A DNA stretch of 64,000 nucleotides from Rheinheimera sediminis. GTDB taxonomy: Bacteria; Pseudomonadota; Gammaproteobacteria; Enterobacterales; Alteromonadaceae. Of this stretch, positions 3,443-61,862 are shown piece by piece. Within the stretch, counting starts at the first letter, position 1. Each line of letters starts with the position of its first letter. The stretch spans positions 1 through 64,000 of the forward strand of contig NZ_RZUF01000008.1 in NCBI RefSeq assembly GCF_004005375.1, written 5' to 3'. A program made the position numbers and the translations under genes. The notes below the pieces were generated by a model. The model was not told the origin of the DNA and searched no databases. It saw nothing but the letters and a program-made list of their open reading frames with translations.

Positions 3443-3542
3443 TGGAATTCGTCAGGGTCAGGCCTTGAATGTTGATTCAACATTCAATGGAATTCGTCAG
3501 GGTCAGGCCTTGAATGTTGATTCAACATTCAAGGCCTGACCC
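3443..3542. repeat. GGGGTCAG-family palindrome with duplicated left arm
   Basis: A 45-bp unit beginning TGGAATTCGTCAGGGTCAGG occurs twice in tandem (3443 and 3488). The second copy closes into a near-perfect hairpin at 3500-3542 with 21-bp arms and a single central T. The right arm contains the stop codon of manB (minus strand). It sits between the convergent 3' ends of the lipoprotein gene and manB and may act as a bidirectional terminator. Confidence 0.9.
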
Positions 3543-4944
3543 CCTGAAGGGTTTGGCGGACTAATTCTTGCGCTGCTTGTTCTGAGCAGGATTCGGCGTA
3601 GCAACGCAGTTCAGGAGCATTGCCCGATGGGCGCAAGTGGATGATATCCTGGTTGGCTAAGGTTAAGCGTAAACCGTCGGTTTGATTAACCTCGCTGATG
3701 CTGCTGTCCACAAAACCTAGCTGCTGTAAAAACAACTCTGGCGCTGCTGCGGCTTGCGCCAATATGGCCTTGCTTGCTTCAGTGGCAAAATTGGTAATGC
3801 GGTCGCTGGCAGTGTATCGCGCTGGCAAGCTGGCTAACAAAGCAGAAACACTGCCCTGCCCCGCTAGTGCCAAAGCCGCCAACGCAGGCAATACAGCATC
3901 ACGGGTTGGTAAAGCGGCCAGCTCTGCTGCACCAATCTGCACTGAGCTGCCCAGCAGGAAACCGCCATTGGCTTCAAAGCCAGCATAGGTTTTGTAGTCT
4001 GCGGCTAAATCGTTAAAAGCGGCAATAACATAAGGCGAACCTATACGGGTGCGCAGCACAGTGCTGAAGCTGCCGGTCTTTTCAATAGCAGTATTGCAGC
4101 TCACAGGCACAGCCAAAGCTTCAACAGCTAAATAGCGGGCAGCCAGTAAGCAGAGTAAATCGCCACGCAGCCAATTGCCTGCCTCATCAGCCAACAAAGG
4201 CCTGTCGCCGTCACCATCTGTGGAGAAAATAGCATCCAACTTGTGCTCTGCCGCCCATAGCCTGGCTTTAGCTCTGTCTTCTTCTGACACTGCTTCCGTG
4301 TCTATAGGCACAAAATGATCGGTGCGCTCCAGCGTGATCACTTCAGCACCCAAGGCACTAAATAACTGATTGTATAAATCACGGCCTGCGCTGGAATGCT
4401 GGTAAATACCTATGCGCTTGCCCTGCAATAAGTTGGCAGGAAACACCTGTAGATAGCGCTCTATATAAGCTGCTGCCCCTGAGGTGTTGATCTGCAGTGT
4501 CTGCAAGGCTGTAATGGCTTCAAATTCGGTTTCAGAATGAATAATGGCAAACTCGTCTTGCTTGCTAATTTCACCATCCGGCCGGTAAAACTTTAAACCG
4601 TTGCGATCAAAAGGAATATGACTACCTGTAACCATAATGGCTGGAATAGCCTGCTGCATAGCGACAAAAGCCAATGCAGGTGTAGGTAACACACCATAAA
4701 ATATAGCTGTTAAGCCAGCCTGCTGAGCCGCCACAGCACAAGCTTGCGCCATATGTAAACTGCTTGGCCTGTTGTCGATACCAATAGCAACAGTATCAAA
4801 ATGAAAAGCTGGCCGCATTTGAGCAACAAAAGCATGAGTAAAAGCGGCACAGACATCAGTGGTAAATTGAGTAACTAGACCACGGGCGCCACTGGTACCA
4901 AAAGCAATTCCGCTATTGGCGATAACGTCCATTGTATTAAGCAT
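3529..4944 (-). CDS. manB: Phosphomannomutase
   Basis: Converts mannose-6-phosphate to mannose-1-phosphate in the cytoplasm, feeding GDP-mannose synthesis with the nearby ManC. It belongs to the alpha-D-phosphohexomutase family: an N-terminal FGTSGARG loop, the active-site serine in TGSHIPFDRNG (about Ser108), the metal-binding loop DGDGDRP (about 243-249) and the phosphate-binding RPSGNAPELR loop near the C-terminus. Length 471 aa is normal. The ATG at 4944 has a good AGGAGT Shine-Dalgarno. The C-terminus reads QGVRP-stop, and the last codons and stop come from the dispersed palindrome at 3500-3542. It is separated from manC by a 1.2 kb palindromic array, so co-transcription with the rest of the locus is uncertain. 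Phosphoglucomutase activity cannot be excluded from sequence. Confidence 0.9.
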   Translation of the reverse strand: MLNTMDVIANSGIAFGTSGARGLVTQFTTDVCAAFTHAFVAQMRPAFHFDTVAIGIDNRPSSLHMAQACAVAAQQAGLTAIFYGVLPTPALAFVAMQQAIPAIMVTGSHIPFDRNGLKFYRPDGEISKQDEFAIIHSETEFEAITALQTLQINTSGAAAYIERYLQVFPANLLQGKRIGIYQHSSAGRDLYNQLFSALGAEVITLERTDHFVPIDTEAVSEEDRAKARLWAAEHKLDAIFSTDGDGDRPLLADEAGNWLRGDLLCLLAARYLAVEALAVPVSCNTAIEKTGSFSTVLRTRIGSPYVIAAFNDLAADYKTYAGFEANGGFLLGSSVQIGAAELAALPTRDAVLPALAALALAGQGSVSALLASLPARYTASDRITNFATEASKAILAQAAAAPELFLQQLGFVDSSISEVNQTDGLRLTLANQDIIHLRPSGNAPELRCYAESCSEQAAQELVRQTLQGVRP

Positions 4945-4979
4945 GGTGACTCCTGGTTTTGCTGATTCTTTGTTTACGA

Positions 4980-4993
4980 ATGGGGTCAGGCCC
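4980..4993. repeat. Left half of a GGGGTCAG palindrome
   Basis: TGGGGTCAGGC matches the outer left arm of the dispersed palindrome and then stops abruptly before the tandem array. The matching right half lies on the far side of the array at 6259-6283. Confidence 0.6.
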
Positions 4994-5010
4994 CCAATGT
5001 TCCCCGGATT

Positions 5011-6245: not shown

Positions 6246-6258
6246 ACCTGACACCAAT

Positions 6259-6283
6259 GATTCAACATTCAAGGCCTGACCCC
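6259..6283. repeat. Right half of a GGGGTCAG palindrome after manC
   Basis: ATTCAACATTCAAGGCC followed by TGACCCC is the complete right arm of the dispersed palindrome with no left arm next to it. It ends 6 bp before the manC stop codon (minus strand). The 4980-4993 left half lies at the other end of the tandem array. Confidence 0.75.
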
Positions 6284-6289
6284 GTTTAT

Positions 6290-7747
6290 TCACACCCGGC
6301 CGTATTTATCGGAGAAACGTACTATGTCGTCTTCGCCTAAATAACTGCCCGACTGAACTTCAATCAGTTCCAGCGGCACTTTGCCTGGGTTTTCCAGCGC
6401 GTGAACTGCGGTAATAGGAATATAAACCGATTGATTTTCGGATAAATATTGATCTTTGCCGTCTATGGTAACCAAAGCTGTACCAGCAACCACTATCCAG
6501 TGTTCAGCGCGGTGGTGGTGCATTTGCACTGAAAGCTTAGCGCCAGGTTTTACCGTAATACGCTTCACCTGAAAACGTTGGCCATTGTCGACCGAATCGT
6601 ATTTACCCCAAGGCCTATACACTTCACGATGAAAGTTTACTTCAGTGCGTTCAGCCGCTTTTAGCTGGTTAACTATATGTTTTACGTCCTGAGTACAGTC
6701 TTTATGCGCTACCAAAATAGCGTCTTTGGTGTTCACAATCACCAGGTCGCTCACACCTACAGTAGCCACCATTTTGTCGTCAGAATGCACGTACAAGTCA
6801 TGCGAATTGTGACTAAAGACCTCACCACGCAACACATTGTTTTCTGCGTCTTTGGTCGCTACCTGCCACAAAGCCGCAAAGCCACCTACGTCATTCCAAC
6901 CTGCGTCCAAAGGAACTACTACTGCATCCTGAGTTTTCTCCATCACTGCATAGTCGATAGAGTCATCAGGGCAAGCCAAAAAGGCTTCTTTGTCAATGCG
7001 GATAAAATCAAGGTCGGCCGTTAAATTTGCAACAGCGCGCTCACAGGCCTGATAAATATCTGGTCTGTGTAGCTTTAACTCTACTAAATAGCGTGAAGCT
7101 TTAAATAAAAACATACCACTGTTCCAGTAGTATTCACCGCTTGCTAAATAGCCTTGAGCTGTAGCCGCATCTGGTTTTTCTACAAAAGCCGCTACTGCAT
7201 AAGTTGATTGCTCGCCTGACTGCGCGCTTTGTTCCGGCGCATTGGCAGCATTGGCAGCAACAGCCTCACCCCGGCGAATATAACCATAACCAGTTTCAGC
7301 ATGGCCAGGCACTATGCCAAAGGTAACCAGCTTGCCCGCTTGCGCCAGAACTGTCGCCTGAGCTACTGCGGCATGAAAGGCTGGCACGTTTTGGATCACA
7401 TGGTCGGCGGCCAGTACTAACAACAGAGGGTCGTCGCCTTTTGCAACAGCAGTAAAGGCAGCCAGCGCTATAGCAGGTGCTGTATTACGCCCTGCCGGCT
7501 CCAATAAAATTTGTGCATTGGCTATATGCAGCTGCTTTACCTGTTCAGCGGTAATAAAGCGGTTGTCTTCATTGCAAATAACCATAGCAGGCTGATGGGC
7601 CAAGCCCTTTAAACGCAACAAGGTTTCCTGCAGCATGCTGTGTTCACCACAAAGCGGAATAAACTGCTTAGGGTAGTTACTGCGCGACAAAGGCCATAAA
7701 CGAGTGCCCATGCCACCGGCCATAATAATTGGAAATAGCACTTCCAT
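6290..7747 (-). CDS. manC: Mannose-1-phosphate guanylyltransferase / mannose-6-phosphate isomerase
   Basis: Bifunctional enzyme making GDP-mannose: the N-terminal ~350 residues are a nucleotidyltransferase with [21 protein letters not shown] at residues ~9-29 (signature loop and Lys), and the C-terminal ~110 residues are a cupin mannose-6-phosphate isomerase domain with the metal-binding [10 protein letters not shown] motif. Length 485 aa is typical of the CpsB/ManC/AlgA family. The linker near residues 165-185 is Ala/Gln-rich and slightly expanded. It lies downstream of rmlD on the same strand, with a perfect palindrome between them, and is followed by a half palindrome. The Shine-Dalgarno before ATG 7747 is poorly spaced, so the level of translation may depend on upstream coupling. 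Confidence 0.95.
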
Positions 7748-7765: not shown

Positions 7766-7810
7766 GGGGTCAGGCCTTGAATTTTGAATCAAAATTCAAG
7801 GCCTGACCCC
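7766..7810. repeat. GGGGTCAG-family perfect palindrome at the rmlD 3' end
   Basis: Two perfect 22-bp arms flank a single central A. The core reads GAATTTTGA instead of the usual GAATGTTGA, and the matching change is present in the other arm. It contains the rmlD stop codon and lies between rmlD and manC, both on the minus strand. Confidence 0.95.
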
Positions 7811-8674
7811 ACTAACTACATGCGACAAAGCGTTTTGCCAATCTGACGGCAAAACGCCAAATGAGTCGAGCATTTTTGCTGTACTTAAAACGGAGAAAGC
7901 AGGCCGACGTGCTGGGGTTGGGTATTCACTGGTTGGAATAGGTTGTACCACCACATCCTTTAGTAAAACTCCATGCTCTTTCGCTGCAGCGAACACCTGT
8001 TGAGCAAATTCAAACCAACTTACCGCCTTATCGCCACAAAAATGATAAACACCTCCGTCACGACCCGAATCAGCTACTTTTAACACAATGTCTTTAATAG
8101 CGGCAGCAATATCACCTGCATAGGTAGGGCAACCAACCTGATCAGCAACTACTTTTAGCTCATCTCTTTGCGCGCCTAATCGCAACATTGTTTTCACAAA
8201 ATTACTACCGTACTCGCTAAAAACCCAAGCAGTACGAATAATAATTGCAGCGGGATAAGCCTGCAAAACAACGATTTCACCAGCAAGTTTAGTTTTACCA
8301 TAAACGCTGGTTGGATTTACTGAATCGGTCTCAACATAAGGCCTTGTTGCCGTACCATCAAATACATAATCTGTTGATACATGAATAAAACCAGCCTTAT
8401 TCGCACTACACCATAGGGCTATTGCTTCAGGGCTACTGGCATTAATAAGCTGAGCCAACTCAGGTTCGGCTTCGGCTTTGTCTACTGCTGTGTAAGCCGC
8501 CGCATTGATCACAAAATCTGGCTTCAAATTGTCTAGCTTTTGACAAATATGTTCAGGTTCTGACAAATCAACAAGAGCCCTGTCAGCAAAAACAACGTCG
8601 TGCTCACTAGCTTGAAACACATCAGCCAGGCATTTGCCTAGCTGACCATTAGCACCTGTGACTAAAATTTTCAT
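7796..8674 (-). CDS. rmlD: dTDP-4-dehydrorhamnose reductase
   Basis: Last step of dTDP-L-rhamnose synthesis: NAD(P)H-dependent reduction of dTDP-4-keto-L-rhamnose. An extended SDR fold is shown by the N-terminal GANGQLG dinucleotide loop, the catalytic YGKTK (Tyr-x3-Lys) with the upstream STDYVF serine/threonine, and the family segment RTAWVFSEYGSNFV. At 292 aa it is near the normal length. Its ATG overlaps the rmlC stop by 4 bp, indicating translational coupling in an rmlB-A-C-D operon. The final residues SGVRP and the stop codon are contributed by the dispersed palindrome at 7766-7810, so the native C-terminus has been replaced or trimmed. Confidence 0.95.
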   Translation of the reverse strand: MKILVTGANGQLGKCLADVFQASEHDVVFADRALVDLSEPEHICQKLDNLKPDFVINAAAYTAVDKAEAEPELAQLINASSPEAIALWCSANKAGFIHVSTDYVFDGTATRPYVETDSVNPTSVYGKTKLAGEIVVLQAYPAAIIIRTAWVFSEYGSNFVKTMLRLGAQRDELKVVADQVGCPTYAGDIAAAIKDIVLKVADSGRDGGVYHFCGDKAVSWFEFAQQVFAAAKEHGVLLKDVVVQPIPTSEYPTPARRPAFSVLSTAKMLDSFGVLPSDWQNALSHVVSGVRP

Positions 8675-24889: not shown

Positions 24890-27672
24890 AGCCTTTGCTC
24901 TGGTTAAAATTACTCTTCTTGTTATGCTTAGCGCTGCCCGGCAGTGCAGAGCTGCAGGCGGCTGAGCCTGTGGTTCGATTTGGTGTGCTGATGCATAACT
25001 CCAGTGACGATGCTGTATCCACTTACCAGCCTTTGCAGCAGTTTTTGTCTGAGCAGCTGCAGCCTATGCGCGTTGAACTGGTGTTTATTGAACCTGATAT
25101 GCTGGAGTTGCCTGGCCTTCAGGCCACTACCGATTTTTTACTGACCGACCCCTATCATTACATACTGCTGAAAAACCAAGGCTATACTCTGCCGCCTTTG
25201 CTGAGCCAGGTGACCCTGACCGAGAGCGGGCTGTTTGAATTGGCCGGTGGTGTGATGTTTTGCCTGGTTTCTAATCCGCTTTGTGATTTGAATTCTATGC
25301 CTCAGGCCAGTATTGCTGCCGCTGGGCCTCATTCGCTGCTGGGTTATGTTGCGCAACTGCGGGAGCTGCAGCATCTGGGGGTTCGGCTTTCTGCCAATCT
25401 GGTGCAGCACAATGTGTCTGACGCAGATACTGTGGCTGCAGTGCTTAATCAGCGTGCTGACATAGGTTTTATTCGCAGCGGTGCTGTGGAGCAGCTATTT
25501 GCCTCTGCTGTGGTGACTGAGCAGATGGTGCGCATTCTTAATACACAGCAGCTGATTGAGTTGCCTGTCTATAGCTCGACCCGGCTTTATCCGGACTGGC
25601 CTGTGTTGGTGATGCCTGCTGTGTCTTCAGGCACTATAAGCCGCGTGATGGCTGCTTTGCTGAACTGGGAAGCACAAGCCAGAACTTTGGGGATGAATTA
25701 TGCCTTTGGCGCCCCAGCCGATTATTTGAGTGTGGAACATAGCCTGAAGGCTTTGGCTTTCCCTCCTTATCAACTGGCGCCAGCAGAAAGCTTTATGCAT
25801 AGCTGGAGTGACCACAAGGAAGCTGTGCTGCTTATCTCTGCTCAGGGTGCCTTCTTGCTGCTGTTGCTGCTGGTTTTTATCTACAGAAGCAGAGCCGATC
25901 AAAAAACCTGCGCCAGCTTGCGACAGAGCAATGAGCTGCTGGCGTTACAAAAACTTCGTACCGACAAGGTAATTAATAACACAGCGCACTTGTTGCTGTT
26001 GGGACTGGACTCTGGTGGCACTGTGCTGCACTTTAATGACAATGCGCTTAAGCTGTTGAATAGCTCAGAGGCTGAGTTGCAAGGCAAAGTGTTTTTAGAC
26101 TGGTTACCTGATGAGAAACAACATTCGGTAGTACTGGCTGCGTTGAACCCCAAAGCGCATTCGTCGACACAGGCCACTGTGGTTAACCTGCAAGTGCATT
26201 TGCCGAACGGCAAAGAGTTATTTTTGGATGTGGACTTGTTTTGTTTGCCTGGTGAAAGTGCGTCGCAAGTTCGCTTTGTTTTGCTTGGCATAGATGTAAG
26301 CCGGCGTTACACCACGGAAAAACGCTTGCAGAAGAGCTTTAAGCGGCTGGATGTGCTGATTGAGCGCAGCCCGGCGGTGATTTGTGCCTTTGACCCTTTT
26401 AGTATGAGGCTGAATTACATCAGCCCGAACTGTTTTAATATTTATCTGAAAAGTTCGATGGAAATTATGCGAATGCAAGACTGGTGGAATTTGTCTGTGC
26501 ATCCGGATAGTCAGGAGCAGATCACGAAAAAGCTGATGGATTGGCGGGATGCCGGCCATCAGGGTGTGTTGAATTATAGCTGTATTCTGGTGCGCAACCC
26601 GTTGCAGACAGGTTTGCTGGTGGAAGACCCTGAACTGCATCAGCAGCAAATTTGTATTGAAAGCCAATTTTGCGCACTGCGGGATGAACATGGCTTGGTG
26701 ACTGAGGTGATTGGCTCTCAAGTGGATATTTCCGAAAGGTACTATGCACAAATGAAACAAGAGCTGGCCGCAAGTGTATTTGTGCAAGCCCGTGAAGGGA
26801 TTTTTATTACCGACGCCAGTGGCACTATTTTGGATTTGAACCACTCGTTTTGTCGTATTACCGGTTATTCAGAACAAGAGGCTTTGGGCTGTCATCTGGC
26901 GCTGTTGGGCGCGTCAGATTCGGACAAGCTGTATTTTGAGGCCTTGTGGGACAAGCTGAGCAAGGCTGGTTTTTGGGAAGGTGAAATTAACGGTCAGCGC
27001 AAAAATGGCGAAGCTATTGTATTGGCGTTGACTATTTCTGTGGTGCGCAACATGCAGCATCAGGCTATTCATTATGTCGCCTTGTTTTCTGATATCACGC
27101 TGCAAAAAGCTCAGGAAGATAAACTAAGGTTTATTGCGCATTTTGATGCCCTGACCGGCTTGCCGAACCGTTTGTTGTTAAAAGACCGCATTGAGCAAAA
27201 TATGGCGTTAACCAAACGCAGTAAACAGCTGATGGCGGTGATTTTTATTGATATTGACGGTTTTAAAGCGGTGAACGATAGCCTGGGCCATGCGGCAGGG
27301 GATGATTTGCTGGTAGAGCTGGCCAATCGGATGCGTGCTGTAATGCGCGAAAACGATACGCTGGCGCGCTTGGGTGGCGATGAGTTTATTGCGTTGTTGA
27401 CCAATCTGGTCAGTGAGGAAGATTGTTTCCCACTGATCAAACGCCTGTTACTGGCCGCCAGCACTCCTTTTGAGTTACGGCAACAACAAGCTAAGGTAAG
27501 CGCGAGTATTGGCATTACGTTCTACCCGCAGCAAGATGCGGTTGATGATGCGGCCTTGATCCGCCAGGCTGATTTGGCCATGTATGAGGCGAAGAACTCT
27601 GGCAAAAACCGATACGCTGTTTATCACCAGCATGATAAAGAGTTAATCGAATTAGATGCCACTGAAGGCTAA
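24886..27672 (+). CDS. PhnD-like sensor diguanylate cyclase (PBP-TM-PAS-GGDEF)
   Basis: A 928-aa membrane-bound c-di-GMP synthase. Residues 1-~25 are a signal sequence, and ~28-300 a PhnD/transferrin-type periplasmic binding domain (RFGVLMHNSSDDAVSTYQPL, FLLTDPYHYILLKNQGY). A transmembrane helix lies at ~313-332, then three PAS-like regions (about 350-480, 490-630 and 640-745) and a C-terminal GGDEF domain. The catalytic motif is intact (RLGGDEF), and an inhibitory I-site RxxD (REND) lies the canonical five residues upstream. No EAL domain follows. It is translationally coupled to the substrate-binding lipoprotein by an ATGA overlap. A MITE-like repeat follows the gene. Confidence 0.92.
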   Translation: MKPLLWLKLLFLLCLALPGSAELQAAEPVVRFGVLMHNSSDDAVSTYQPLQQFLSEQLQPMRVELVFIEPDMLELPGLQATTDFLLTDPYHYILLKNQGYTLPPLLSQVTLTESGLFELAGGVMFCLVSNPLCDLNSMPQASIAAAGPHSLLGYVAQLRELQHLGVRLSANLVQHNVSDADTVAAVLNQRADIGFIRSGAVEQLFASAVVTEQMVRILNTQQLIELPVYSSTRLYPDWPVLVMPAVSSGTISRVMAALLNWEAQARTLGMNYAFGAPADYLSVEHSLKALAFPPYQLAPAESFMHSWSDHKEAVLLISAQGAFLLLLLLVFIYRSRADQKTCASLRQSNELLALQKLRTDKVINNTAHLLLLGLDSGGTVLHFNDNALKLLNSSEAELQGKVFLDWLPDEKQHSVVLAALNPKAHSSTQATVVNLQVHLPNGKELFLDVDLFCLPGESASQVRFVLLGIDVSRRYTTEKRLQKSFKRLDVLIERSPAVICAFDPFSMRLNYISPNCFNIYLKSSMEIMRMQDWWNLSVHPDSQEQITKKLMDWRDAGHQGVLNYSCILVRNPLQTGLLVEDPELHQQQICIESQFCALRDEHGLVTEVIGSQVDISERYYAQMKQELAASVFVQAREGIFITDASGTILDLNHSFCRITGYSEQEALGCHLALLGASDSDKLYFEALWDKLSKAGFWEGEINGQRKNGEAIVLALTISVVRNMQHQAIHYVALFSDITLQKAQEDKLRFIAHFDALTGLPNRLLLKDRIEQNMALTKRSKQLMAVIFIDIDGFKAVNDSLGHAAGDDLLVELANRMRAVMRENDTLARLGGDEFIALLTNLVSEEDCFPLIKRLLLAASTPFELRQQQAKVSASIGITFYPQQDAVDDAALIRQADLAMYEAKNSGKNRYAVYHQHDKELIELDATEG

Positions 27673-27723
27673 ATAAGCTGCGCCCATTGCCTTAGCCTAT
27701 TGCGTCGGCCCCTTGCCCCTTTA

Positions 27724-27846
27724 TAGTTCAGACACTTTGGGAATTGCTTTGTCTCGCCATAGCAAGCTATAGCTAGACAAAGCAGCGCAGAGAGACGTAA
27801 AAAGATTCCTACTCAGTGGCGCGGCTTATCCCGAGTTCAGGTTACC
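27724..27846 (-). repeat. MITE-like element, copy 1 (truncated)
   Basis: Read on the minus strand it begins CCTGAACTCGGGATAAGCC, passes a CTCTCTGCG segment and the inner CTATAGCTTGCTATGG hairpin, and then stops without the second terminal repeat. It lies between the convergent 3' ends of the diguanylate cyclase and the M14 peptidase. Apart from this element the 266-bp interval shows nothing. Confidence 0.75.
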
Positions 27847-27938
27847 TTAGGCTGGCTTGAGGTAGACCAAGCGCTTGAAGACAGCAGCACCTTGTTCGCT
27901 GTTCGCTATTTGCTACTAACAAGGTGCTCTGCCCCATT

Positions 27939-29711
27939 TTACTCTATCAGTATTGGGTATTTCAGGTAGTTTTGGTCGTAGTACGGCAGGCGCTGGTATA
28001 ACCATTGCAGCTTGGCGTTAGGATCTGAGGCCAACTTTTTGTCTTGTTTTAGCGCTTCTTCAAATTCTGCTTTAAGTTTTTTATCCTGTTTTAAAGCAAC
28101 CTCAATTAAAGGCACCAGGGCGTAAGTTTCAAAATACTCAACGCGCTCAAACATGCCTGGCATGTAGCCCCAACTGAATAAGGAATCGGGTGCTGTGGGT
28201 TCCAGCAAGGCCACAGCCAGGGCACCTAAAGGTTGATCGGTGCTGACCCGGATTGAGCCGGCTGGTAAGCGGATTTTTTTCCAGTGACGGCTGAACTCGG
28301 CCTTGACACCAAAGCGCCCTTCAAAAGGTTGAGTGGCAAATTGGTGCTTAGTGGCAGTTAGCTGCTGCAACTGGATAGTTTTTGGCGATTTTAAGCTGGT
28401 AAACTGCACACCATGTAAAGCCAGTTTGGCGATCACTGCTTGCTGTTCAGGTGGGATCCAATAGGCTGTTGGTACTTCGATCTCTGCTGCGACTTCTTTT
28501 TCCCAATACACTGGCAATTGTTCAAAATTGACCGGCTTTCCTGTCCAGGTTTGATATTGAACTCCTGTAATAGGATCTTTTTTCTGCACAGCCTCTACGC
28601 CTTTAAAGCTGATGTAGTCTGGAGTTTCGCTGGCTTTCCAGGCCAGAACCTGGCGTTGAGGACGGGCATTTTCATCGGCTTTTTTTGCCAGTTTTAATAC
28701 TGCCCCTTGTTGTTGCAATAGTTTTAAGCTGTGTTCCAGCAGCACGTAAGTGCCTAATACCCGTTGTTTATAAGGCTTTAAACTGTGGTTTTCTACCAAT
28801 ACTGTTGGAATATGGCGTAAATCACCATAGCCATTGGAAAAACGCGGGCTTGAGGTTGAACCTGCTAAACCTTTGCTGAAGTCGGAGCTGTCGTATGCAA
28901 ACACTAGGGGGCCAGGAATATGACCTGCCTCAGTCAGCGCTTGATCAAGAGCTGGCCGAAAGCTGGTAGCGAGCCAACTGGCTGCGTTGGGGCTGAGGGC
29001 GGCAAAAGGTTCGTTAAAGCCGTAGGTGATGTCGTATTGATAGTCTTCGCCATCTGTGACGTGCAGATCCAGATAGAGATCGGGCTGATAACGGTTGAGT
29101 AACTTCAGCAGCGCTTGCATTTCCGGAGCTTCGGCTTTCATATAGTCGCGATTTAGGTTCAGGTTTTGTGCAGTAGAACGCCAGCCCTGAAGCTCAGGCC
29201 CACGCTGATTCATCCTGTTGTGTTTACCGCTGCGCTCGTGGCCGTCTACTGAAAATATTGGGATGAACAGCAGGTTTACTTCTTTCAGCAAGTCGGCTTT
29301 GTCGCCTTGTACTATGTCGCGCAGCAGCATTAAGCCGGCGTCTTTGCCGTCAATTTCGCCACTGTGGATCCCAGCCTGAGCCAGCAGCAGGGGTTTATTG
29401 TCGCGGCCTATCATGTCCGGATCTGTGCCCGCTTTGACCAGATAAATGGCCCGGCCTTGGGGGCTTTGTCCTATCACTTCCAACTTCACCATTGAGGTAC
29501 TGGCGGCCAGCCGTTCAAGGTACTTGATGGTGCTTTGGTAGTCTGGAGTTTCAGATAAATCAGACAGTTCAGCCGGTGTTACCCAGGGATGCTGAGCTGG
29601 TTTAATCAGACTTAAAGTGCTTCCTTGCCACTCAGGCAAAGGGGGTAAATGGTCGGCTGCTGTAACAGAGAAAACAATACTGCACGCCAGAGCAAGGGCG
29701 ATTTTTTTCAT
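27939..29711 (-). CDS. Exported M14-family zinc carboxypeptidase
   Basis: A metallopeptidase of ~590 aa in the M14 (carboxypeptidase A-like) clan. I choose ATG 29711 because it begins a typical signal peptide (KKIALALACSIVFSVTAAD); the frame extends 21 codons upstream without signal-like sequence. The first two zinc ligands are in GIHSGEIDGKDAG at about residues 114-126 and the third His in YLDLHVTDG at ~220. ARG/Asn substrate-binding residues are likely in NLNRDYMKAE. A C-terminal extension of ~250 residues beyond the catalytic core is non-catalytic. It probably acts in the periplasm on peptides. A palindrome lies between its start and the RND gene's stop. Confidence 0.88.
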   Translation of the reverse strand: MKKIALALACSIVFSVTAADHLPPLPEWQGSTLSLIKPAQHPWVTPAELSDLSETPDYQSTIKYLERLAASTSMVKLEVIGQSPQGRAIYLVKAGTDPDMIGRDNKPLLLAQAGIHSGEIDGKDAGLMLLRDIVQGDKADLLKEVNLLFIPIFSVDGHERSGKHNRMNQRGPELQGWRSTAQNLNLNRDYMKAEAPEMQALLKLLNRYQPDLYLDLHVTDGEDYQYDITYGFNEPFAALSPNAASWLATSFRPALDQALTEAGHIPGPLVFAYDSSDFSKGLAGSTSSPRFSNGYGDLRHIPTVLVENHSLKPYKQRVLGTYVLLEHSLKLLQQQGAVLKLAKKADENARPQRQVLAWKASETPDYISFKGVEAVQKKDPITGVQYQTWTGKPVNFEQLPVYWEKEVAAEIEVPTAYWIPPEQQAVIAKLALHGVQFTSLKSPKTIQLQQLTATKHQFATQPFEGRFGVKAEFSRHWKKIRLPAGSIRVSTDQPLGALAVALLEPTAPDSLFSWGYMPGMFERVEYFETYALVPLIEVALKQDKKLKAEFEEALKQDKKLASDPNAKLQWLYQRLPYYDQNYLKYPILIE

Positions 29712-29803
29712 TTTACACAAATCCATTTCGGGGCTTTTAAACAAGTCGCCAAAGTTTTTACCATTAACAGTCAAGATTAAAAAGGGGCAGGCAAAAAGAA
29801 AAA

Positions 29804-29855
29804 GGGGTCAGGCCTTGAATGTTGAATTGAAATTCAACATTCAAGGCCTGACCCC
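29804..29855. repeat. GGGGTCAG-family perfect palindrome at the RND gene 3' end
   Basis: Perfect 25-bp arms around a central GA. The element ends 7 bp from the RND pump stop codon (minus strand). Confidence 0.95.
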
Positions 29856-29862
29856 ACTGCTT

Positions 29863-32925: not shown

Positions 32926-32928
32926 AGA

Positions 32929-35082: not shown

Positions 35083-35097
35083 ATGGATCCATAGAGC

Positions 35098-35871
35098 TTA
35101 GAAGCGGTAGCTTGCACCTATCTGGTACACATCATCATCTGTCTCGAGCGAGTCGAAGACGACGCTTGCTGACAAGGACAAGTTCGGCAATGCAAACCAG
35201 TTCGCACGCAAACTCAGGCTGTCTTCACTTTCACTGAATACTTTGTCAGAGATCCACTCATACCCAACACCAGCTGAAAAGTTTTTACCGAAGTAATAGT
35301 CAGCACCTACCCCATAACGCGTCACTGAAGCCTGGCGATAATCCAGGATACTGGCTTCAAGATTCATCATGTCACCTGTGCCTAAATCCCAGAGTTTTTT
35401 CGTCATCACACCATAGTTAGTGCTGCTGCCAGCTTGCTCAGGTCTGTCATGTTCGAAAATAGCACCTACTAACCAGTCCGGACTAATAAAGTAACCCAGA
35501 GTACCATCCAGATCCTGTTGGTCTGTGCCGCTGAAATGTGTCCATTCCAACTTGCCGTAAAAGTTATGGCTTTGGTCCATGTATTCACCACCGACAGACC
35601 AAGAGTTTTGATCCGCTTCATTGGATGATAAACGTGACAAGGTACCGAAAACGCTGGCATTTTTGTTGATGAATGCCGCTTCAGCGCGTGGTGTCTTACC
35701 TGAAGTGTCTACTGCATTAAAGAAATACTGATGCTTCAGTTGCCATCCATCGATATCAACACCGTTGATATCTGTATTGCCATAGGCCACTGATGATTCA
35801 TGTTGATAGTTGTTCGCTGCTGCACCAGTTGAGACTACAGCGATAAGTAAAGCGAGCACAGAACCTTTCAT
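35098..35871 (-). CDS. Porin-like outer-membrane beta-barrel protein
   Basis: A 257-aa exported protein: signal peptide at ~1-19 (VLALLIAVVSTGAAANN), then alternating amphipathic beta strands and a C-terminus ending YQIGASYRF, with the terminal aromatic residue expected for BAM-dependent insertion. The strand pattern (WQLKHQYFFN, NFYGKLEWTHFSG, SAGVGYEWISD) resembles the putative general porin family (Porin_7-like). Single-gene unit with its own upstream region. The pore specificity is not predictable; a structural role is also possible. Confidence 0.8.
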   Translation of the reverse strand: MKGSVLALLIAVVSTGAAANNYQHESSVAYGNTDINGVDIDGWQLKHQYFFNAVDTSGKTPRAEAAFINKNASVFGTLSRLSSNEADQNSWSVGGEYMDQSHNFYGKLEWTHFSGTDQQDLDGTLGYFISPDWLVGAIFEHDRPEQAGSSTNYGVMTKKLWDLGTGDMMNLEASILDYRQASVTRYGVGADYYFGKNFSAGVGYEWISDKVFSESEDSLSLRANWFALPNLSLSASVVFDSLETDDDVYQIGASYRF

Positions 35872-36033
35872 AATTACTACCTTTTGGTTAAGAAAACGCA
35901 GGCAGTGTAAAACTCTGAAAGTTAACGCTCTCTGAATGATTTTGTAAATAAGTGTATAAATATCAAAAAGATAAACAAATAGAATGAGAAAAGTCTGATG
36001 GACAGCGGGGGGCGATAGACAGCGGGGTCATAG

Positions 36034-36095
36034 ACAGCGGGGTCAGGCCTTGGATCTTGAATTGAAATTCAAGATCCAAGGCCTGACCCCGCTGT
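36034..36095. repeat. GGGGTCAG-family palindrome at the uvrB 3' end
   Basis: Arms pair over 30 bp: the 25-bp family arm plus locus-specific ACAGC/GCTGT. The core is variant (TTGGATCTTGAA) with matching changes in the other arm. Three copies of GACAGCGGGG at 36001, 36018 and 36033 lead into it. It ends 7 bp from the uvrB stop. Confidence 0.93.
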
Positions 36096-36102
36096 ATCTA
36101 TG

Positions 36103-38094
36103 TTAGATTTCCAGCAAGGCTTGGCGTAGTTGATGAATTTGATCGCGCAGTTGTGCTGCCTGTTCAAATTCCAGGTCTTTGGCGTGTTGCAGCATTTTTT
36201 GCTCCAGCTGTTTGATTTCTGCCTGCAATTGATAAGGTGTTTTGCCTTTGGCCAGTTTGATTTTCTCTGCCACTTTTGGCAGATCGGCATCCTGGCCCAG
36301 GTCCATCACGTCCGATACTTTCTTCTTAATAGCAGTAGGTGTGATGCCATGCAGTTCGTTGTAGGCGATTTGTTTAGTGCGCCGGCGTTCGGTTTCATTA
36401 ATAGCGCGCTGCATCGAACCTGTGATGCGATCGGCATAGAGCACCGCCTTACCGGCCAGGTTACGGGCAGCTCGCCCCATGGTTTGGATCAGGGACCGCT
36501 CTGAACGTAAAAAGCCTTCTTTGTCTGCATCCAGAATAGCGACCAGAGAGACTTCCGGAATATCCAGACCTTCCCGCAATAAGTTAATACCCACCAGCAC
36601 ATCAAATACGCCTAAACGTAAATCGCGGATAATCTCCATCCTCTCTACTGTGTCGATGTCTGAGTGTAAATACCGCACCTTGACGCCATGACCTGCTAAA
36701 TAGTCGGTTAAATCCTCAGCCATTTTTTTGGTCAATACTGTCACCAGCACCCGTTCACCAATTTTGGCGCAGCGAAAGGCTTCCGACATTAAGTCGTCCA
36801 CCTGTGTCGCCACAGGCCGGATTTCAATCACAGGGTCGATCAGGCCTGTTGGCCTCACTACCTGCTCTACTACTTCGCCTGCTGATTGGTTTAACTCGTA
36901 ATCTGCCGGAGTAGCAGAGACATAAATGCGCTGCGGCGCTATGGATTCAAATTCATCAAACTTCAGTGGCCTGTTATCCAGGGCTGAAGGCAGACGAAAA
37001 CCATAGTTCACCAGGTTTTCTTTGCGTGAACGGTCACCTTTGTACATGGCGCCTATTTGCGAAATGGTGACATGGGATTCGTCGATAAACATTAAGCCGT
37101 CGGCCGGGAAATAATCCAGCAAAGTGGGCGGCGGTTCGCCCTCCCCGCGCCCTGATAAGTAGCGTGAATAGTTTTCAATGCCTGAGCAATAGCCTAGTTC
37201 GATCATCATTTCTAAATCAAATAAGGTTCGCTGGCCTATACGCTGCTCTTCGATCAGACGGTTTTCTGCCAGCAGCTGCGCACGGCGCTCTTTTAGCTCG
37301 ACCTTGATACGCTCTGTCGCTTCTAGAATTTTTTCCCTTGGCGTGACGTAGTGAGTTTTTGGATAAATAGTGTAGCGACTGACAACTTTTTCTACTGAAC
37401 CTGTAAGTGGGTCGAACAAACTGATGCGCTCAATTTCTTCATCAAATAGTTCGATACGCACAGCGATTTCGTCCGATTCAGCCGGAAATACATCAATTAC
37501 ATCACCCCGCACCCTGTAAGTAGCGCGTTCAAAGGCAGCGTCATTGCGGCTGTATTGCAACTCAGCGAGGCGGCGCAGGATAAAACGTTGGTCGACTATG
37601 TCGCCCACTTTCAGATGCAACAGCATCTTCATATAGGATTCCGGATCGCCTAAACCGTAAATAGCGGAAACAGAGGCAATAATGACCACGTCGCGGCGTT
37701 CCATCAGCGCTTTGGTGGCCGACAAACGCATTTGTTCTATGTGTTCATTAATGGAGGCGTCTTTTTCGATAAAGGTATCACTGGACGGCACATAAGCTTC
37801 TGGCTGGTAATAATCGTAATAAGACACAAAGTATTCCACCGAGTTATTCGGGAAAAACTCTTTCATCTCGCCATAGAGCTGAGCCGCCAAAGTTTTATTG
37901 TGCGCCATAATCAGCGTAGGCCGGTTTACCTGGGCTATCACATTGGCCATGGTGAAGGTTTTACCTGAGCCCGTCACACCCAATAGGGTTTGATGCGCTA
38001 AACCTGACTCCAGACCTTCAACCAGTTTTGCTATTGCTGTAGGTTGATCGCCTGCAGGTTGATAATTGGAGACTAATTCAAAATCGCGGCTCAT
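36103..38094 (-). CDS. uvrB: UvrABC excision nuclease subunit B
   Basis: Central damage-verifying helicase-like subunit of nucleotide excision repair. Walker A in [16 protein letters not shown] (~residues 35-50), the beta-hairpin region with [20 protein letters not shown] at ~93-112, DESHVT as Walker B, helicase motifs V-VI in [18 protein letters not shown] and QTMGRAARN, and the C-terminal UVR coiled-coil domain for UvrC contact ([20 protein letters not shown]). At 663 aa it is the normal length. It is probably monocistronic, ending at a dispersed palindrome. Confidence 0.98.
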
Positions 38095-38158
38095 AGAGTT
38101 TCACCCTGTATCACTTTGTTCAACTCGCGGCGACTATGCCACTTAAAGGCAAGACTCA

Positions 38159-39523
38159 TCAGGATCCTCCACTTACAGTTAAAGCAGCCAGTTTACGTGT
38201 AAACCAACTGTACGCCAGAGAAGATGTAAACAGATTGGCAATTAAGCCGCCAACAAAAACCCCTATTACTCCGCCAACTAAACCACCGACGTAAGCAAAA
38301 GGTACATAAAATACGAAAAGGCGGATCAGGCTAAGCTGTAACGCATTCATAGGTAAATGCAAGGCATTAAAGGACGAGTTGGTCAGGATAATGATGCCCT
38401 GCAAACCATAACCTAAAGGCAAAATCCAGATAAAGTAGCGGATATACTGGGCGACTAAAGGATCGTCGGTAAATACATCGGCCACAGCCCAGGCGCAGGC
38501 AGCTAAGCCCAGATAAACCAAAAACTGCCAGGCTAAAATAAATTTAATACAACGCCTGTAGGCTTCATCAATACGCGGATAAGCACAGGCGCCATAGTTT
38601 TGACTGACAAAAGGCGGCAAGGTCATAGAAAGCGCCAGCACAACCAAACAGGCAATACTTTCAATACGTGCCCCTACACCAAAAGCGGCAACAGCTTCAG
38701 CGCCATAACTGGCCATCAGGGCCGTTAAGATAGCCATGGCCAAAGGAGTGAGCATATTGGCGCCCGCAGCTGGCAAACCTATGTACAAAATTTTGCGGCT
38801 GATTTGAATAAATTCAGCAAAAGGCTGATGCCCTAAATCAACCAGTTTGCGGCGCACCATCAGTAAATACAAAATCAGACTAAATCCCAATAACCAGGAA
38901 ATCAGACTGGCCAGTGCAGCTCCGGCCACTCCCATCGCTGGCACAGGGCCCCAGCCAAAAATAAACAGCGGGTCCAGGATGGCATTGAGTAAACCCGCAC
39001 AAGCCATCAAAATACTGGGCGTTTTGGTATCGCCAGCAGCACGCAGCACCGCATTACCAATCATAGGAGTAATTAAGAACACAGCGCCTAAAAACCAGAT
39101 TTGCATATAGTCGTGAATAAAAGGCAAGGTATCGTCTTTTGCCCCTAGGAGGCGGAATAAAGGATCGATCGTCAGATAGCCCAGCAAAGACAAGGCCATG
39201 ACCAGATAGGCTGACAGCCATAAGGCGGCTAAGCCATCACTTCGCGCACTTTTTTCGTCACCACTGCCTAAAGCACGGGCTATCACAGCTGAAGTACCTA
39301 TGCTTAAACCTATAGCTAAGCTGATCACGGTAAAAGTGACAGGAAACGTAAAACTGACAGCAGCCAGCTCTGCTGTACCCAGCATACTGATAAAAAAGGT
39401 ATCCACCAGATTAAATGACATAAGCGTGAGCATGCCAAAAAGCACTGGTACCGTCATTTGTTTGAGTGTGGCCTGAATATCACCTTTGAGCAGATCAGGA
39501 CGTTTGGAAGTGGATTGAGTCAT
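38159..39523 (-). CDS. MATE-family multidrug/sodium efflux transporter
   Basis: A 454-aa inner-membrane antiporter with 12 predicted helices in two pseudo-symmetric halves. Family segments are VPVLFGMLTLMSFNLVDTFF at the start, ELAAVSFTFP in TM1-2, and the equivalent EAVAAFGVGARIES in the second half. It belongs to the bacterial NorM/DinF-type MATE transporters that expel organic cations using Na+ or H+. ATG at 39523. It lies 64 bp upstream of uvrB on the same strand; co-transcription is possible. Substrate not predictable. Confidence 0.94.
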   Translation of the reverse strand: MTQSTSKRPDLLKGDIQATLKQMTVPVLFGMLTLMSFNLVDTFFISMLGTAELAAVSFTFPVTFTVISLAIGLSIGTSAVIARALGSGDEKSARSDGLAALWLSAYLVMALSLLGYLTIDPLFRLLGAKDDTLPFIHDYMQIWFLGAVFLITPMIGNAVLRAAGDTKTPSILMACAGLLNAILDPLFIFGWGPVPAMGVAGAALASLISWLLGFSLILYLLMVRRKLVDLGHQPFAEFIQISRKILYIGLPAAGANMLTPLAMAILTALMASYGAEAVAAFGVGARIESIACLVVLALSMTLPPFVSQNYGACAYPRIDEAYRRCIKFILAWQFLVYLGLAACAWAVADVFTDDPLVAQYIRYFIWILPLGYGLQGIIILTNSSFNALHLPMNALQLSLIRLFVFYVPFAYVGGLVGGVIGVFVGGLIANLFTSSLAYSWFTRKLAALTVSGGS

Positions 39524-54310: not shown

Positions 54311-54335
54311 GGGGTCTGGCTTTCAGCCTGACCCC
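54311..54335. repeat. Short GGGGTC hairpin after gloA
   Basis: GGGGTCTGGCT-TTC-AGCCTGACCCC, with one mismatch per arm. It begins 5 bp after the gloA stop and lies between convergent genes. It looks like a shortened variant of the GGGGTCAG family. Confidence 0.75.
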
Positions 54336-55340: not shown

Positions 55341-55397
55341 ATTGGGGTCAGGCCTTGAATGTTGAATCAAATTCAACATTCAAGGCCTGACCCCAAT
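55341..55397. repeat. GGGGTCAG-family perfect palindrome at the bfd 3' end
   Basis: 24-bp family arms around a CAA loop, extended by matching ATT/AAT flanks to 27 bp. A CCCCCAATGCAATT repeat of the right flank follows at 55405-55419. It ends 20 bp from the bfd stop (minus strand). Confidence 0.93.
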
Positions 55398-55417: not shown

Positions 55418-55642
55418 TTAAGCAGCAGGACGGGTGGTATTGATCATTAACACCGGAATACGTTGTTGTGCTGACTGTTTGGATAAAGCAGAGTCGAGAA
55501 TATCGCTGGCCTGACAGACACATTTGCCACATTGAGTGCCTACACCCAAATTTTGTTTCAGCTCACGCATAGAACAAGCGCCCGCTTCGACCTGTTGGCG
55601 AATGGCTTTATCTGTGACTGCTTTACAAAGACAAACGTACAT
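55418..55642 (-). CDS. bfd: Bacterioferritin-associated ferredoxin
   Basis: A 74-aa [2Fe-2S] protein that reduces and helps mobilise iron from bacterioferritin. Four cluster Cys residues are visible: Cys4 and Cys6 in MYVCLCKAV, and Cys38 and Cys41 in TQCGKCVCQA, with the family BFD_like fold. Slightly longer than the 64-residue Escherichia coli protein. A promoter with TTGATA/TACTAT overlaps a Fur-like half-site upstream, as expected for an iron-starvation gene. No bacterioferritin gene is in the window. Confidence 0.95.
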   Translation of the reverse strand: MYVCLCKAVTDKAIRQQVEAGACSMRELKQNLGVGTQCGKCVCQASDILDSALSKQSAQQRIPVLMINTTRPAA

Positions 55643-55732: not shown

Positions 55733-55751
55733 GGGGTCAGATTCTGACCCC
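55733..55751. repeat. Minimal GGGGTCAG hairpin after the DUF2750 gene
   Basis: GGGGTCAGA-T-TCTGACCCC, with A/T flanks that extend pairing. It ends 12 bp from the stop of the DUF2750 gene (minus strand). Confidence 0.8.
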
Positions 55752-55763: not shown

Positions 55764-56156
55764 TTATTCGTTGTCTTGAGTGGCTTCGATCAGAGTTTCA
55801 GCGAACTCTTCAGGGCCAATGACCACGCCAGGTTCTGCAGCGTGTGGGAAAACCGCTATGGCTAACTCGTCACCGTCTAAGCCGCTGGTCCACTTATCAA
55901 GCCAAGTGGCAATATCTACCGCTTGGGCCTGACATTCAGCCCAGTCTCCATTGATCCACAGTTGTGCCAATTCAGCATGTGGCCAAACCGGGATGCAACG
56001 CTCTTCATCGGCATCAACCAAAACAAAACCTTCTTCATCCACCAGGATCCAGATCTTTTCTAAATCGGCTACGGCCTGAATAAAGTAGTCATAACGCTGT
56101 TCAGCGTCCAATAAACTGAGTTTGTTTAAATCATCAGCTGTTAATTCATAGTTCAT
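55764..56156 (-). CDS. DUF2750 family protein
   Basis: A 130-aa acidic cytoplasmic protein. The RYDYFIQAVADLEKIWILVDEEG region, WPHAELAQLW and the late PHAAEPGVVIGPEEFAETL segment match the DUF2750 family, which has no assigned function that I know of. No signal peptide or membrane segment. The ATG is preceded by GAGGGGAT. Stand-alone gene, ending at a minimal palindrome. Confidence 0.85.
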   Translation of the reverse strand: MNYELTADDLNKLSLLDAEQRYDYFIQAVADLEKIWILVDEEGFVLVDADEERCIPVWPHAELAQLWINGDWAECQAQAVDIATWLDKWTSGLDGDELAIAVFPHAAEPGVVIGPEEFAETLIEATQDNE

Positions 56157-59876: not shown

Positions 59877-59889
59877 GCAGCTAGTAGTG

Positions 59890-60116
59890 GATCTGAGTCG
59901 GGATAATGAGTGCCTCACTGGGTCTTTAACAAATTAAATCAATAAAGTCCGTTTATTCATTTAAATTTGCGCAGCTTTAGCTGCCCAATGCAGCAACAGA
60001 CTTGTGTGGTTATCACGGCACTGTGCTGCTCATAGCTTGCTATGGCCGGGCCGAGTGACACACAGCGCTATAAAAGACATTCATTCAGTGGCGCTGCGGA
60101 TCCCGCATTCAGGTGA
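59890..60116 (+). repeat. MITE-like element, copy 4 (diverged)
   Basis: Starts ATCTGAGTCGGGATAATGAG and ends ATCCCGCATTCAGGTGACTG, imperfect versions of the family ends. The internal CATAGCTTGCTATGG is conserved. It fills most of the ~300-bp interval between the glycosyltransferase and the receiver-TPR gene, where no gene is seen. Confidence 0.7.
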
Positions 60117-60184
60117 CTGAAGCTTCCCCAAAACAGGTTGATAGTATGATAGGCTAACAGCAGTTGTAATGAGAGTTGAGCCAA

Positions 60185-61801
60185 GTGATTTCCAAGCGAG
60201 CATTTTATCGTTCGAAAAAGGTTCTGGTCATAGAAGATTATGAACAAGTCATAGCGTACATGAAAAGTATGTTAGCGCTAATTGGTTTTGACCATGTTGT
60301 TGTGGCGCGTAATGCGGAAACTGCCATGTCAGTTTGCCGTAAAACTGATTTTGATTTTATTCTGTGCGACTACAACTTAGGCGCAGGCCGCGATGGTTAT
60401 CAGTTATTTGAAGCCTTAAAAGCTGAGCACTGCTTAAAACACAGTTGCTGCTTTATTGTGGTCAGTGGTGAACGTCATCGTCAGGCAGTCTATGGCATGA
60501 TCGAATTCCTGCCGGATGATTACCTGTTAAAGCCCTTTAGCTATGCCGAACTTGAGCGGCGCATAGGCCGGGCCTTTCAGGTAAAACGGGCGTTAACATA
60601 TGCCTATCAAATGATTGCTGAAGAAAACTACCCTGAAGCAATTCAAGCCTGTGACATTTCCCTGGAACAATACCCTGTTTATCATGCTTATATTCAACGC
60701 TTAAAAGGTGAGCTCTTAGTGAAAGTAGGACGCTATAAAGAGGCGGAACTATTGTACACCGAGGTGTTGGCTTTTCGTGATCTGCCCTGGGCCAAGTTGG
60801 GTCTGGCTGTGGCTAAAGGCTATCAGGAACAGGACACCGAAGCTGAAGACATGTTGATTGAGCTCACCGATCAGCCTGAAACGAAAATTGAAGCGCTGGA
60901 TTGGCTAACGCGCCTGTATTTGAGTCAAAACAAAGCTGAAGAAGCTTTTAATACAGTGCGCGCTGTGGCGGAGGCCTCACCTAAAAACTATCTGCGTCAG
61001 CATGTGCTGGCCAATTTAGCTGTAATCAATAATCAAACAGAGTTAGCAGTACGGGTACATTCTAAACTGCTGCAAGCCGCTAAGTATTCCATCTATGACA
61101 CAGCAGACAATATGCTGAACTATGCCAGAGCTATGATCCAAAATGCTCAGTCAATGTCAGTGCGTGAGCGGGGAAAGGTGATTGGCAAGGTAGACTATTT
61201 TCTCAAAGAGGTTAAAAAACGGTTTAACCCAAGCAGTTACGAACACGACAAACTGGTGATAGAAGCAAGGGCTGCAGTACTAGAGGGTAAAACAGACAAA
61301 GCGACAAGCTTACTACAACAGAGCGAAGAACTGAGCTTAGGCCGCACTTTATCTGCTTCAGCATTGCTGGACAGAGCCAGAGCCTATTTCGAAACCGGTA
61401 ATCTGGCGATGAGTGACCACTATATGGGTTCCTTGAATACCTTATCGCAAAGTTCTGATCTGTATAACAAAGCGCTGAATATGATGTTTTTATCGGAACA
61501 AGATAAGTACAGCCACAAAAGAGCCACCATGATGGCAAGCCATAACGCTGGTATGGAGGCTTATAGTCTGGGGCAATATTCTGAAGCCATTTCCTATTTT
61601 ATCGAAGCACAAAAAACTATGCCGGCAAACGCCAGCATAGCGATGAATTTACTGCAGGCCATCAGCCAACGCGGCCGTTTAAACGAAGATTTAATTTATC
61701 TGGTTCACAAGTGTATGAACCTGATAGATGACGCCGAGCTGCCCAAAGAACAACGGAAAAGGTACCATTTTATCAAAGAACAAATTGAGCAGATGTTGTA
61801 A
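60185..61801 (+). CDS. Response regulator receiver-TPR protein
   Basis: A ~538-aa cytoplasmic protein. Residues ~10-130 are a CheY-like receiver domain with acidic VIEDYEQ, the phospho-acceptor Asp in FILCDYNLGAGRDG (~61), VVSGE and LLKPFSYAEL (Lys). The rest, ~140-538, is an all-helical solenoid of TPR-like repeats (EENYPEAIQACDISLEQYP, VGRYKEAELLYTEVL, YSLGQYSEAISYFIEA) with no DNA-binding or enzymatic domain, so output is probably protein-protein. GTG 60185 has GAGAG 9 bp upstream and is preferred over the TTG at 60176. No histidine kinase is adjacent. A long palindrome begins at its stop codon. Confidence 0.88.
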   Translation: MISKRAFYRSKKVLVIEDYEQVIAYMKSMLALIGFDHVVVARNAETAMSVCRKTDFDFILCDYNLGAGRDGYQLFEALKAEHCLKHSCCFIVVSGERHRQAVYGMIEFLPDDYLLKPFSYAELERRIGRAFQVKRALTYAYQMIAEENYPEAIQACDISLEQYPVYHAYIQRLKGELLVKVGRYKEAELLYTEVLAFRDLPWAKLGLAVAKGYQEQDTEAEDMLIELTDQPETKIEALDWLTRLYLSQNKAEEAFNTVRAVAEASPKNYLRQHVLANLAVINNQTELAVRVHSKLLQAAKYSIYDTADNMLNYARAMIQNAQSMSVRERGKVIGKVDYFLKEVKKRFNPSSYEHDKLVIEARAAVLEGKTDKATSLLQQSEELSLGRTLSASALLDRARAYFETGNLAMSDHYMGSLNTLSQSSDLYNKALNMMFLSEQDKYSHKRATMMASHNAGMEAYSLGQYSEAISYFIEAQKTMPANASIAMNLLQAISQRGRLNEDLIYLVHKCMNLIDDAELPKEQRKRYHFIKEQIEQML

Positions 61802-61862
61802 AATGGGTTCAGAACACCTTAGTTATAAGTAACTAAGGTGTTCTGAACCCATTTTATTTTTT
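61801..61862 (+). terminator. Long hairpin with T-tract after the receiver-TPR gene
   Basis: Perfect 25-bp arms (61801-61825 and 61830-61854) around TAAG, followed by TATTTTTT. The left arm begins at the last base of the stop codon. It reads TGGGTTCAGAACACC where the GGGGTCAG family has TGGGGTCAGGCC. Probably a Rho-independent terminator, 12 bp before rmlB copy 2. Confidence 0.9.

Follow-up and report, generated by a model that had tools for sequence, protein, structure and literature searches.

Why should one kind of hairpin stand time after time right behind genes, at the very end of their reading frames, and does this place reflect how the hairpin arrives there or what it is used for? The question is raised by the first 64,000 nucleotides of contig NZ_RZUF01000008.1 (contig C79 in our numbering) of the 4.49-Mb genome of Rheinheimera sediminis, which we call the window. 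A sequence-only reading of this stretch had listed nine palindromes at gene 3' ends and supposed that they act as terminators or 3' mRNA stabilisers, or that insertion is directed at 3' ends. All nine places contain the described sequence and GGGGTCAG-type tips are present at 9 of 9; we have refined the coordinates, and the gene names at these hairpins were checked with Pfam. The association of the hairpins with stop codons is real. To account for it, we lean modestly towards the reading that they are mobile hairpins of the terminal-inverted-repeat (TIR) type, which settle in, and serve as, the 3'-end hairpins of genes; both the mobility and the termination we infer from comparison of sequences.

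Throughout the genome, the pattern GGGGTCAGGCCTTGAAT with up to two mismatches gave 42 + 43 matches (85) and its reversed control none, and pairs of GGGTCAG..CTGACCC numbered 22 with spacers of 3–33 and 28 with spacers of 34–64 (some nested), against 0 and 1 in the controls. Plain chance is rejected by these reversed-pattern controls, and the random-position controls contradict it as well. The merged genome-wide set, with single arms counted, comprises 58 clusters. Genes were called with a custom, simple codon-based caller, which overlooked genes in places such as the polysaccharide cluster. By these calls a stop codon is at most 10 bp away from 41 of the 58, at most 15 bp from 48 and at most 25 bp from 53, compared with 5.4%, 7.3% and 11% of random intergenic points, and start codons are found within 10 bp of none and within 25 bp of three. 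Convergent spacers hold 28 of the clusters and same-direction spacers 27, with one in a divergent spacer and two at contig ends; the element-free spacer DNA sampled comprised 19.2 kb of divergent versus 5.2 kb of convergent sequence. The five clusters farther than 25 bp from a stop are a half element at a contig end (43 bp), a single-arm match inside a gene, a single-arm match in the divergent spacer, and one cluster each at 251 bp and 28 bp.

The strict 3'-end placement claimed for the window is thus borne out genome-wide, and it is repeated in two congeners. In G016, which is dominated by another hairpin family, 29 of 31 exact palindromes stand within 10 bp of a stop and 30 within 15 bp; in G003, where 40 stretches of a genome with 123 palindromes altogether were sampled, the counts are 37 and 43 of 47. 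Same-direction spacers of these three genomes with at least 60 bp of room have the hairpin nearer the stop in 39 of 41 cases, and with at least 140 bp of room in 15 of 20 cases within 15 bp of it, where 2.5 would be expected with the 80 bp before the start barred. To the remark that no hairpin lies solely at the 5' side of a gene it should be added that two window copies have a start codon within 30 bp (starts 29774 and 7747), with the stop nearer or inside. Stop codons made by the elements themselves were considered as the cause of the placement and rejected, given that the stop lies inside the element in just 5 of 58 clusters (L036 9430–9444, L044 4030–4081 and, in the window, stops 3529, 7796 and 35011) and that the uvrB frame ends at the same residue with or without an element. 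In the elements that do contain a stop, the hairpin can encode the last residues of the protein.

The hairpins are palindromes of about 19–58 bp, perfect or nearly so, with the GGGGTCAG tip in common and family-specific inner arms. Family A (GGGGTCAGGCCTTGAATGTTGAA..), nearly perfect and mostly 45–53 bp long, is the main family in the window; other tip pairs in the genome make up family B (ATCACATTGTTAAC), family C (AGTAAAATTAA) and short forms. Three window copies are predicted to fold as RNA with −46, −49 and −61 kcal/mol (z < −10). Bases just outside family A hairpins are often complementary in a copy-specific manner (e.g. window 36034–36095, L045 4004–4067): the paired-flank run has a mean of 1.37 versus 0.56 with shuffled partners, a value that 0 of 2000 shuffles reach; counted over the first five positions, flank pairs show no significant rise (1.73 versus 1.53 shuffled, p=0.14). 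Insertion into the loop of an older hairpin may have left such flank repeats, but the empty sites at uvrB are without the repeat of the R. sediminis genome.

As for what might move such hairpins, the remark that no RAYT-type (REP-associated tyrosine) transposase is present, REP standing for repetitive extragenic palindromic, holds for the window, which has no Y1 transposase. It is misleading for the genome, where a PF01797 profile search finds two Y1 (HUH) transposase genes, one of them with the same palindrome upstream; a protein search adds a third frame, incomplete, at a contig end (C8:6-455). The gene at L036 9567–10415 encodes a protein of 282 amino acids with the Y1_Tnp domain PF01797 above its cut-off, NHYH and YVLQNP motifs in the translation and a C-terminal HTH_38 match (E 0.036) below the family cut-off, and two family A hairpin groups lie 0.1 and 1.7 kb upstream of it. 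Against the NCBIfam model NF047646 (REP transposase/RAYT), the scores were 65.3 and 65.7 bits, with 65 for the L036 protein, below its cut-off of 80. In the collection searched, the nearest homologues are from Arsukibacterium and Rheinheimera. Of 24 Y1 genes inspected in R. sediminis and related genomes, many have GGGGTCAG hairpins or inverted repeats next to them, with inner arms that vary with the type of protein; L094, L096, L100 and L103 showed no motif. More generally, many Y1 homologues are bordered by GGGGTCA inverted motifs: for the 63 with at least 300 bp on each side among the 80 loci kept, inverted motifs were found on both sides in 25, upstream only in 21, downstream only in 5 and on neither side in 12 (at least one side in 51 of 63), and 0.3% of control placements have them on both sides. 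This controlled count replaces a looser one of 48/72 made without a control.

The inner arms of the hairpins beside transposase genes are those of families A and B, which occur dispersed. The B-type protein was found in four genomes of the genus, which have 123, 51, 49 and 31 exact palindromes by a pattern (spacer 3–33) that undercounts family A (one-sided rank test over 22 genomes, p=0.0015), and copy number among congeners, with one genome per species, ranges from 0 to 123, an indirect sign of mobility. We propose that the hairpins are probably REP-like elements of the terminal-inverted-repeat kind, spread by Y1 tyrosine transposases whose genes bear the same tips. In G033, a genome of another genus, a 24-bp GGGGTCAG palindrome is often found in pairs about 110–200 bp apart, resembling miniature inverted-repeat transposable elements or REPINs (e.g. 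C1 501478 + 501668), and a wider pair (C1 2095812 + 2096459) encloses a Y1 transposase gene.

Shared slots were sought by comparing the genes near elements across genomes, 80 of the 517 R. sediminis genes compared having an element. With the first-named genome as the query, the counts of genes with an element in both genomes, in the query only, in the subject only and in none were 13/2/6/23 for G016 versus R. sediminis (p=5e-5), 13/5/1/26 for G003 versus R. sediminis (p=1.4e-6) and 11/1/1/14 for G003 versus G016 (p=1e-5), the p values being rough, as the two genes at a convergent spacer depend on each other and the choice of every set was guided by elements. They supersede counts made with a looser orthologue rule (13/3/4/31 for G016 versus R. 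sediminis) and with a stricter pattern that missed arrays and undercounted the R. sediminis elements (41 genes versus 80). Some of the remaining misses belong to the pattern: gene L232|2 of G016, entered as having an element in R. sediminis only, has a GGGTCAGAGCC hairpin right past its stop. For two of the five query-only cases of G003, the R. sediminis slot contains a changed hairpin; one is window 61799–61856, where G003 has a family C hairpin. Shared sites number 10 between G016 and R. sediminis, 8 between G003 and R. sediminis and 6 between G003 and G016, with the same family in 1, 0 and 4; the 18 comparisons with R. sediminis cover 14 of its sites, and the families differ in 17 of them. 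At shared sites the offset behind the stop is similar in both species and the inner arms are different.

Individual slots illustrate the same. Behind uvrB, compared in 20 relatives (G007, G018 and G020 in short stretches only), R. sediminis has family A, G021, G016, G012 and G010 have family C, G003 has family B, and no GGGGTCAG hairpin was found in the remaining 15. The slot behind the pump gene holds A in R. sediminis and B in G003, G014 and G005; several other genomes have, as judged by eye, a terminator-like hairpin there. Behind the gene after the pump, G003 and G014 have B and G012 and G013 other GGGGTCAG hairpins; by eye, G005, G016 and G021 seem to carry changed relatives of GGGGTCAG hairpins at this place, and G008, G017, G019 and G002 have classical terminators. 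The slot of the window hairpin at 54311–54335 has family B hairpins in two congeners. The occupation of the same slots by different families suggests interchangeable end-of-message signals: any of the families would work, so that from species to species a given slot would carry one family or another, or else an ordinary terminator. One may go further and picture mobile hairpin families competing for fixed terminator slots of the host, as interchangeable cassettes that replace one another and ordinary terminators, some drifting through compensatory changes into ordinary-looking terminators; from the sequences compared, we would give this extension a little less than an even chance.

The slot data bear also on two rival explanations. 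Perhaps the slots were already occupied in a common ancestor, and the hairpin there was exchanged in place for those of later families, by conversion via the shared GGGGTCAG tips. Similar offsets combined with different inner arms are what such an exchange would leave, and it has been suggested earlier that an 'orthoswitch' was followed by the replacement of part of the older REP variants (Nunvar et al., PMC3686654; of this and the other papers cited here, we draw on parts of the text). We consider it somewhat unlikely nonetheless, as in some congeners these slots contain a classical terminator or lack an element, which leaves the occupation in the common ancestor a supposition. Alternatively, the transposase or its single-stranded DNA substrate may pick the bases behind stops, for instance at a terminator hairpin or an R-loop, and the inserted hairpin may have no function at all. 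The tight positioning even in roomy spacers (15 of 20 within 15 bp) and the different families at the same slots would suit such targeting, and four element-free relatives show, by eye, a weak hairpin at the uvrB slot (e.g. CAGGA..TCCTGTTTTA in G001). However, inspection of the flanks by eye revealed no common target sequence, no formal motif search having been made, and the rarity of second terminators and the preserved arm pairing described next suggest use, so that we regard functionless targeted insertion as unlikely.

What, then, might the hairpins do at mRNA 3' ends? We suppose that they persist nearly only in the slot just past the stop codon, selection being the presumed cause of the placement, and act there as the 3'-end hairpin of the mRNA. 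With the AAAAT/ATTTT added by its outer arms, family B resembles an intrinsic terminator of the two-way type: in G016, TTTT occurs within 10 nt on 41 of 48 sides, and by eye the stem and the T run are usually one base (A) apart. Family A, without a T tail, would more likely shield the 3' end or stop transcription together with Rho. Other terminator-like sites are scarce beside the elements: convergent spacers have a second one in 1 of 72 cases with an element versus 16 of 55 cases lacking an element (p=4e-6), and where 60 bp or more are free in same-direction spacers, the figures are 3 of 43 versus 46 of 207 (p=0.02). The arms, moreover, change together: family B has 0 of 260 cells broken and 21 double-change cells where shuffles give about 27 broken, and family A 10 of 500 broken and 16 double-change cells, with about 29 broken in shuffles.

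Several observations weigh against this combined picture of mobility and use. For family A, TTTT within 10 nt was counted on no more than 5 of 60 sides, and ordinary intrinsic termination throughout is rejected for this family because the T tail is missing. The scarcity of second terminators in convergent spacers is not significant once free room is matched (1/8 versus 10/25, p=0.22). Template-switch repair of perfect palindromes can keep arms matched, so covariation is no proof of RNA function, and the matching could stem from RNA-level selection or from palindrome repair. In G033, only 12 of the 23 copies examined (42 in total) lie within 20 bp of a stop. The Y1 gene of L036 has its palindrome upstream only, with no inverted copy in the 570 bp downstream, and the coupling of hairpin and transposase is not strict: the protein search found no B-type protein in G014, in spite of its B hairpins and 32 exact palindromes, nor in G021, which has 18. 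The earlier proposal of terminators or 3' stabilisers gains indirect support, from slots that alternate by eye with classical terminators, from rare second terminators and from preserved arm pairing, and lacks support in its plainest form, intrinsic termination, for family A. A consensus terminator scan of window 27000–39000 gave 14 matches, the 29804 element among them, versus 14.2 in shuffles, no excess.

Three further explanations appear to us improbable in increasing degree. A hairpin at most 15 nt past the stop might slow the ribosome at termination, an effect described for the REPs of E. coli; 48 of the 58 copies are this close. PMC12306157 quotes for E. coli an effect below 16 nt and a study that assigned 260 of 496 REPs to translational control near stop codons, and that paper's own count is 446 of 4,072 within 15 nt. 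Plain terminators seen by eye behind the same genes in some relatives speak against such translational control, which we hold to be improbable. The chance that hairpins insert anywhere, and that only harmless copies behind genes remain, is in our view slimmer still: intragenic and divergent-spacer copies are indeed nearly absent (1/58 each, both single-arm), but mere tolerance predicts a spread over roomy 3' spacers instead of a pile-up in the first 15 bp, and does not predict slots common to several species. Least credible is a non-mobile origin, in which GGGGTCAG is just a favoured terminator stem like the DNA uptake sequences of Neisseria and Pasteurellaceae, since the terminator-like position and the known use of uptake-signal hairpins as terminators (PMC1852404) are set against copy numbers of 0–123 among congeners, transposase-adjoining hairpins with the inner arms of the dispersed families, and the paired copies of G033, one wider pair of which surrounds a Y1 gene.

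The hairpins of the window are collected in Table 1. The last, at 61799–61856, is a changed relative and the tenth in the window; it was missing from the original list, though the span which that list covered reaches it at its end. The short hairpins at 54311 and 55733 have inner sequences different from the main family. Lone GGGGTCAG half motifs without a second arm occur at 4982–4989, 38 bp upstream of the manB-like start, and at 62595–62602, inside an open reading frame, and an Rfam scan of the window returned three tRNAs only. Partial tandem duplications of flank and part of an arm, with a shift of 14–45 bp, are seen in the window at 3454–3543, 34997–35082 and 36024–36055, and duplications of the same type at L036 7739–7844, L040 4019–4113 and L067 3999–4109; they look like replication slippage at the hairpin. 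At L070 1922–2061, an identical copy pair has a flank repeat and an N in between, possibly an assembly gap or a duplication.

Table 1. Hairpins and associated duplications in the window (positions count from the first nucleotide of the window).
Feature	Position	Strand	Relation to genes and remarks
Partial tandem duplicate, 45 bp	3454-3498		Adjoins family A hairpin 3499-3543
Family A hairpin	3499-3543		Stop 3529 of PGM/PMM (manB-like) gene 3529-4944(-) inside element
Half element, one family A arm	6267-6283	-	6 bp past stop of manC-like gene 6290-7747(-)
Family A hairpin	7766-7810		Contains stop of rmlD-like gene 7796-8674(-)
Family A hairpin	29804-29855		7 bp past stop of AcrB-type pump gene 29863-32925(-); minus-strand T-rich tail
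Half and full family A hairpin	34997-35082		In the spacer of the convergent LysR and porin genes; LysR stop 35011 inside element, porin stop at 35098
35-bp duplication of flank and arm	within 34997-35082		
Family A hairpin	36039-36090 (region 36024-36095)		12 bp past uvrB stop 36103; copy-specific arm extension ACAGC/GCTGT and 15-bp duplication
Short hairpin GGGGTCTGGC..GCCTGACCCC	54311-54335		5 bp past glyoxalase-family stop 54305
Family A hairpin	55344-55394		23 bp past stop of Bfd-like gene 55418-55642(-)
Minimal hairpin GGGGTCAG-ATT-CTGACCCC	55733-55751		12 bp past stop of DUF2750 gene 55764-56156(-)
Sequence-changed hairpin GGGTTCAGAACACC..GGTGTTCTGAACCC	61799-61856	+	Begins in stop codon of response-regulator/TPR gene; T-rich tail at end

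How do these hairpins relate to systems described before? The likeness to REP elements noted in the window holds in that they appear to be REP-like mobile hairpins; their kind is the terminal-inverted-repeat one, which fits the TIRYT/TIRtron systems rather than GTAG-tagged REPs. TIRtrons are Y1 transposase (TIRYT) genes between inverted repeats with a GGGGWSAS motif, and TIR repeat families are moderately abundant (Di Nocera et al., 2013, PMC3733652). The tip GGGGTCAG, or its one- to two-base variants, fits this motif. The parts of that paper drawn on here are without a description of stop-codon placement of TIR repeats, of slot sharing between species or of a terminator role; their distance analysis covers the GTAG and CGTC REPs, which lie in convergent and same-direction spacers, often less than 20 bp from 3' ends, and supply stop codons. 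Our elements differ from these REPs in having no GTAG or CGTC foot or tag, by eye, in the flanks and in being long, nearly perfect palindromes with GGGGTCAG in both symmetric arms. TnpAREP subclass 2.1 (Quentin et al., 2018, PMC6006769), which according to that paper is probably the same as TIRYT, resembles the transposases found here in its long protein and its HuH and Y---NP motifs, and perhaps also in a C-terminal extension that is weakly similar to helix-turn-helix domains, an assignment made by length and motif only. It differs in that, in the portion of the paper considered, no REP-like sequences were found beside its genes, whereas here GGGGTCAG hairpins or inverted repeats often adjoin the genes of the relatives. 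DNA uptake signal hairpins (Kingsford et al., 2007, PMC1852404) are alike in their repeated motif, inverted pairs and terminator position behind genes; the copies here, in contrast, number tens to about 100, belong to several families and are linked to transposase genes.

The tip and the type of transposase are already known, and so is the stop-codon rule for another REP type. Among the matches listed in a search of the openly licensed PMC literature, limited to titles and the beginnings of abstracts, none was on slot sharing or stop-anchored TIR hairpins. What looks new is the sharing of slots between species, whose combination with the known features was not met in the literature so searched.

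Lastly, how REP-like elements escape being purged is an open question, and a place behind genes may be a matter of targeting or of use. The occurrence of several hairpin families at the ends of the same orthologous genes, together with species that have plain terminators there, amounts to a set of natural replicates, in which termination by hairpin A, by hairpin B, by a terminator or by nothing can be compared behind one and the same gene.

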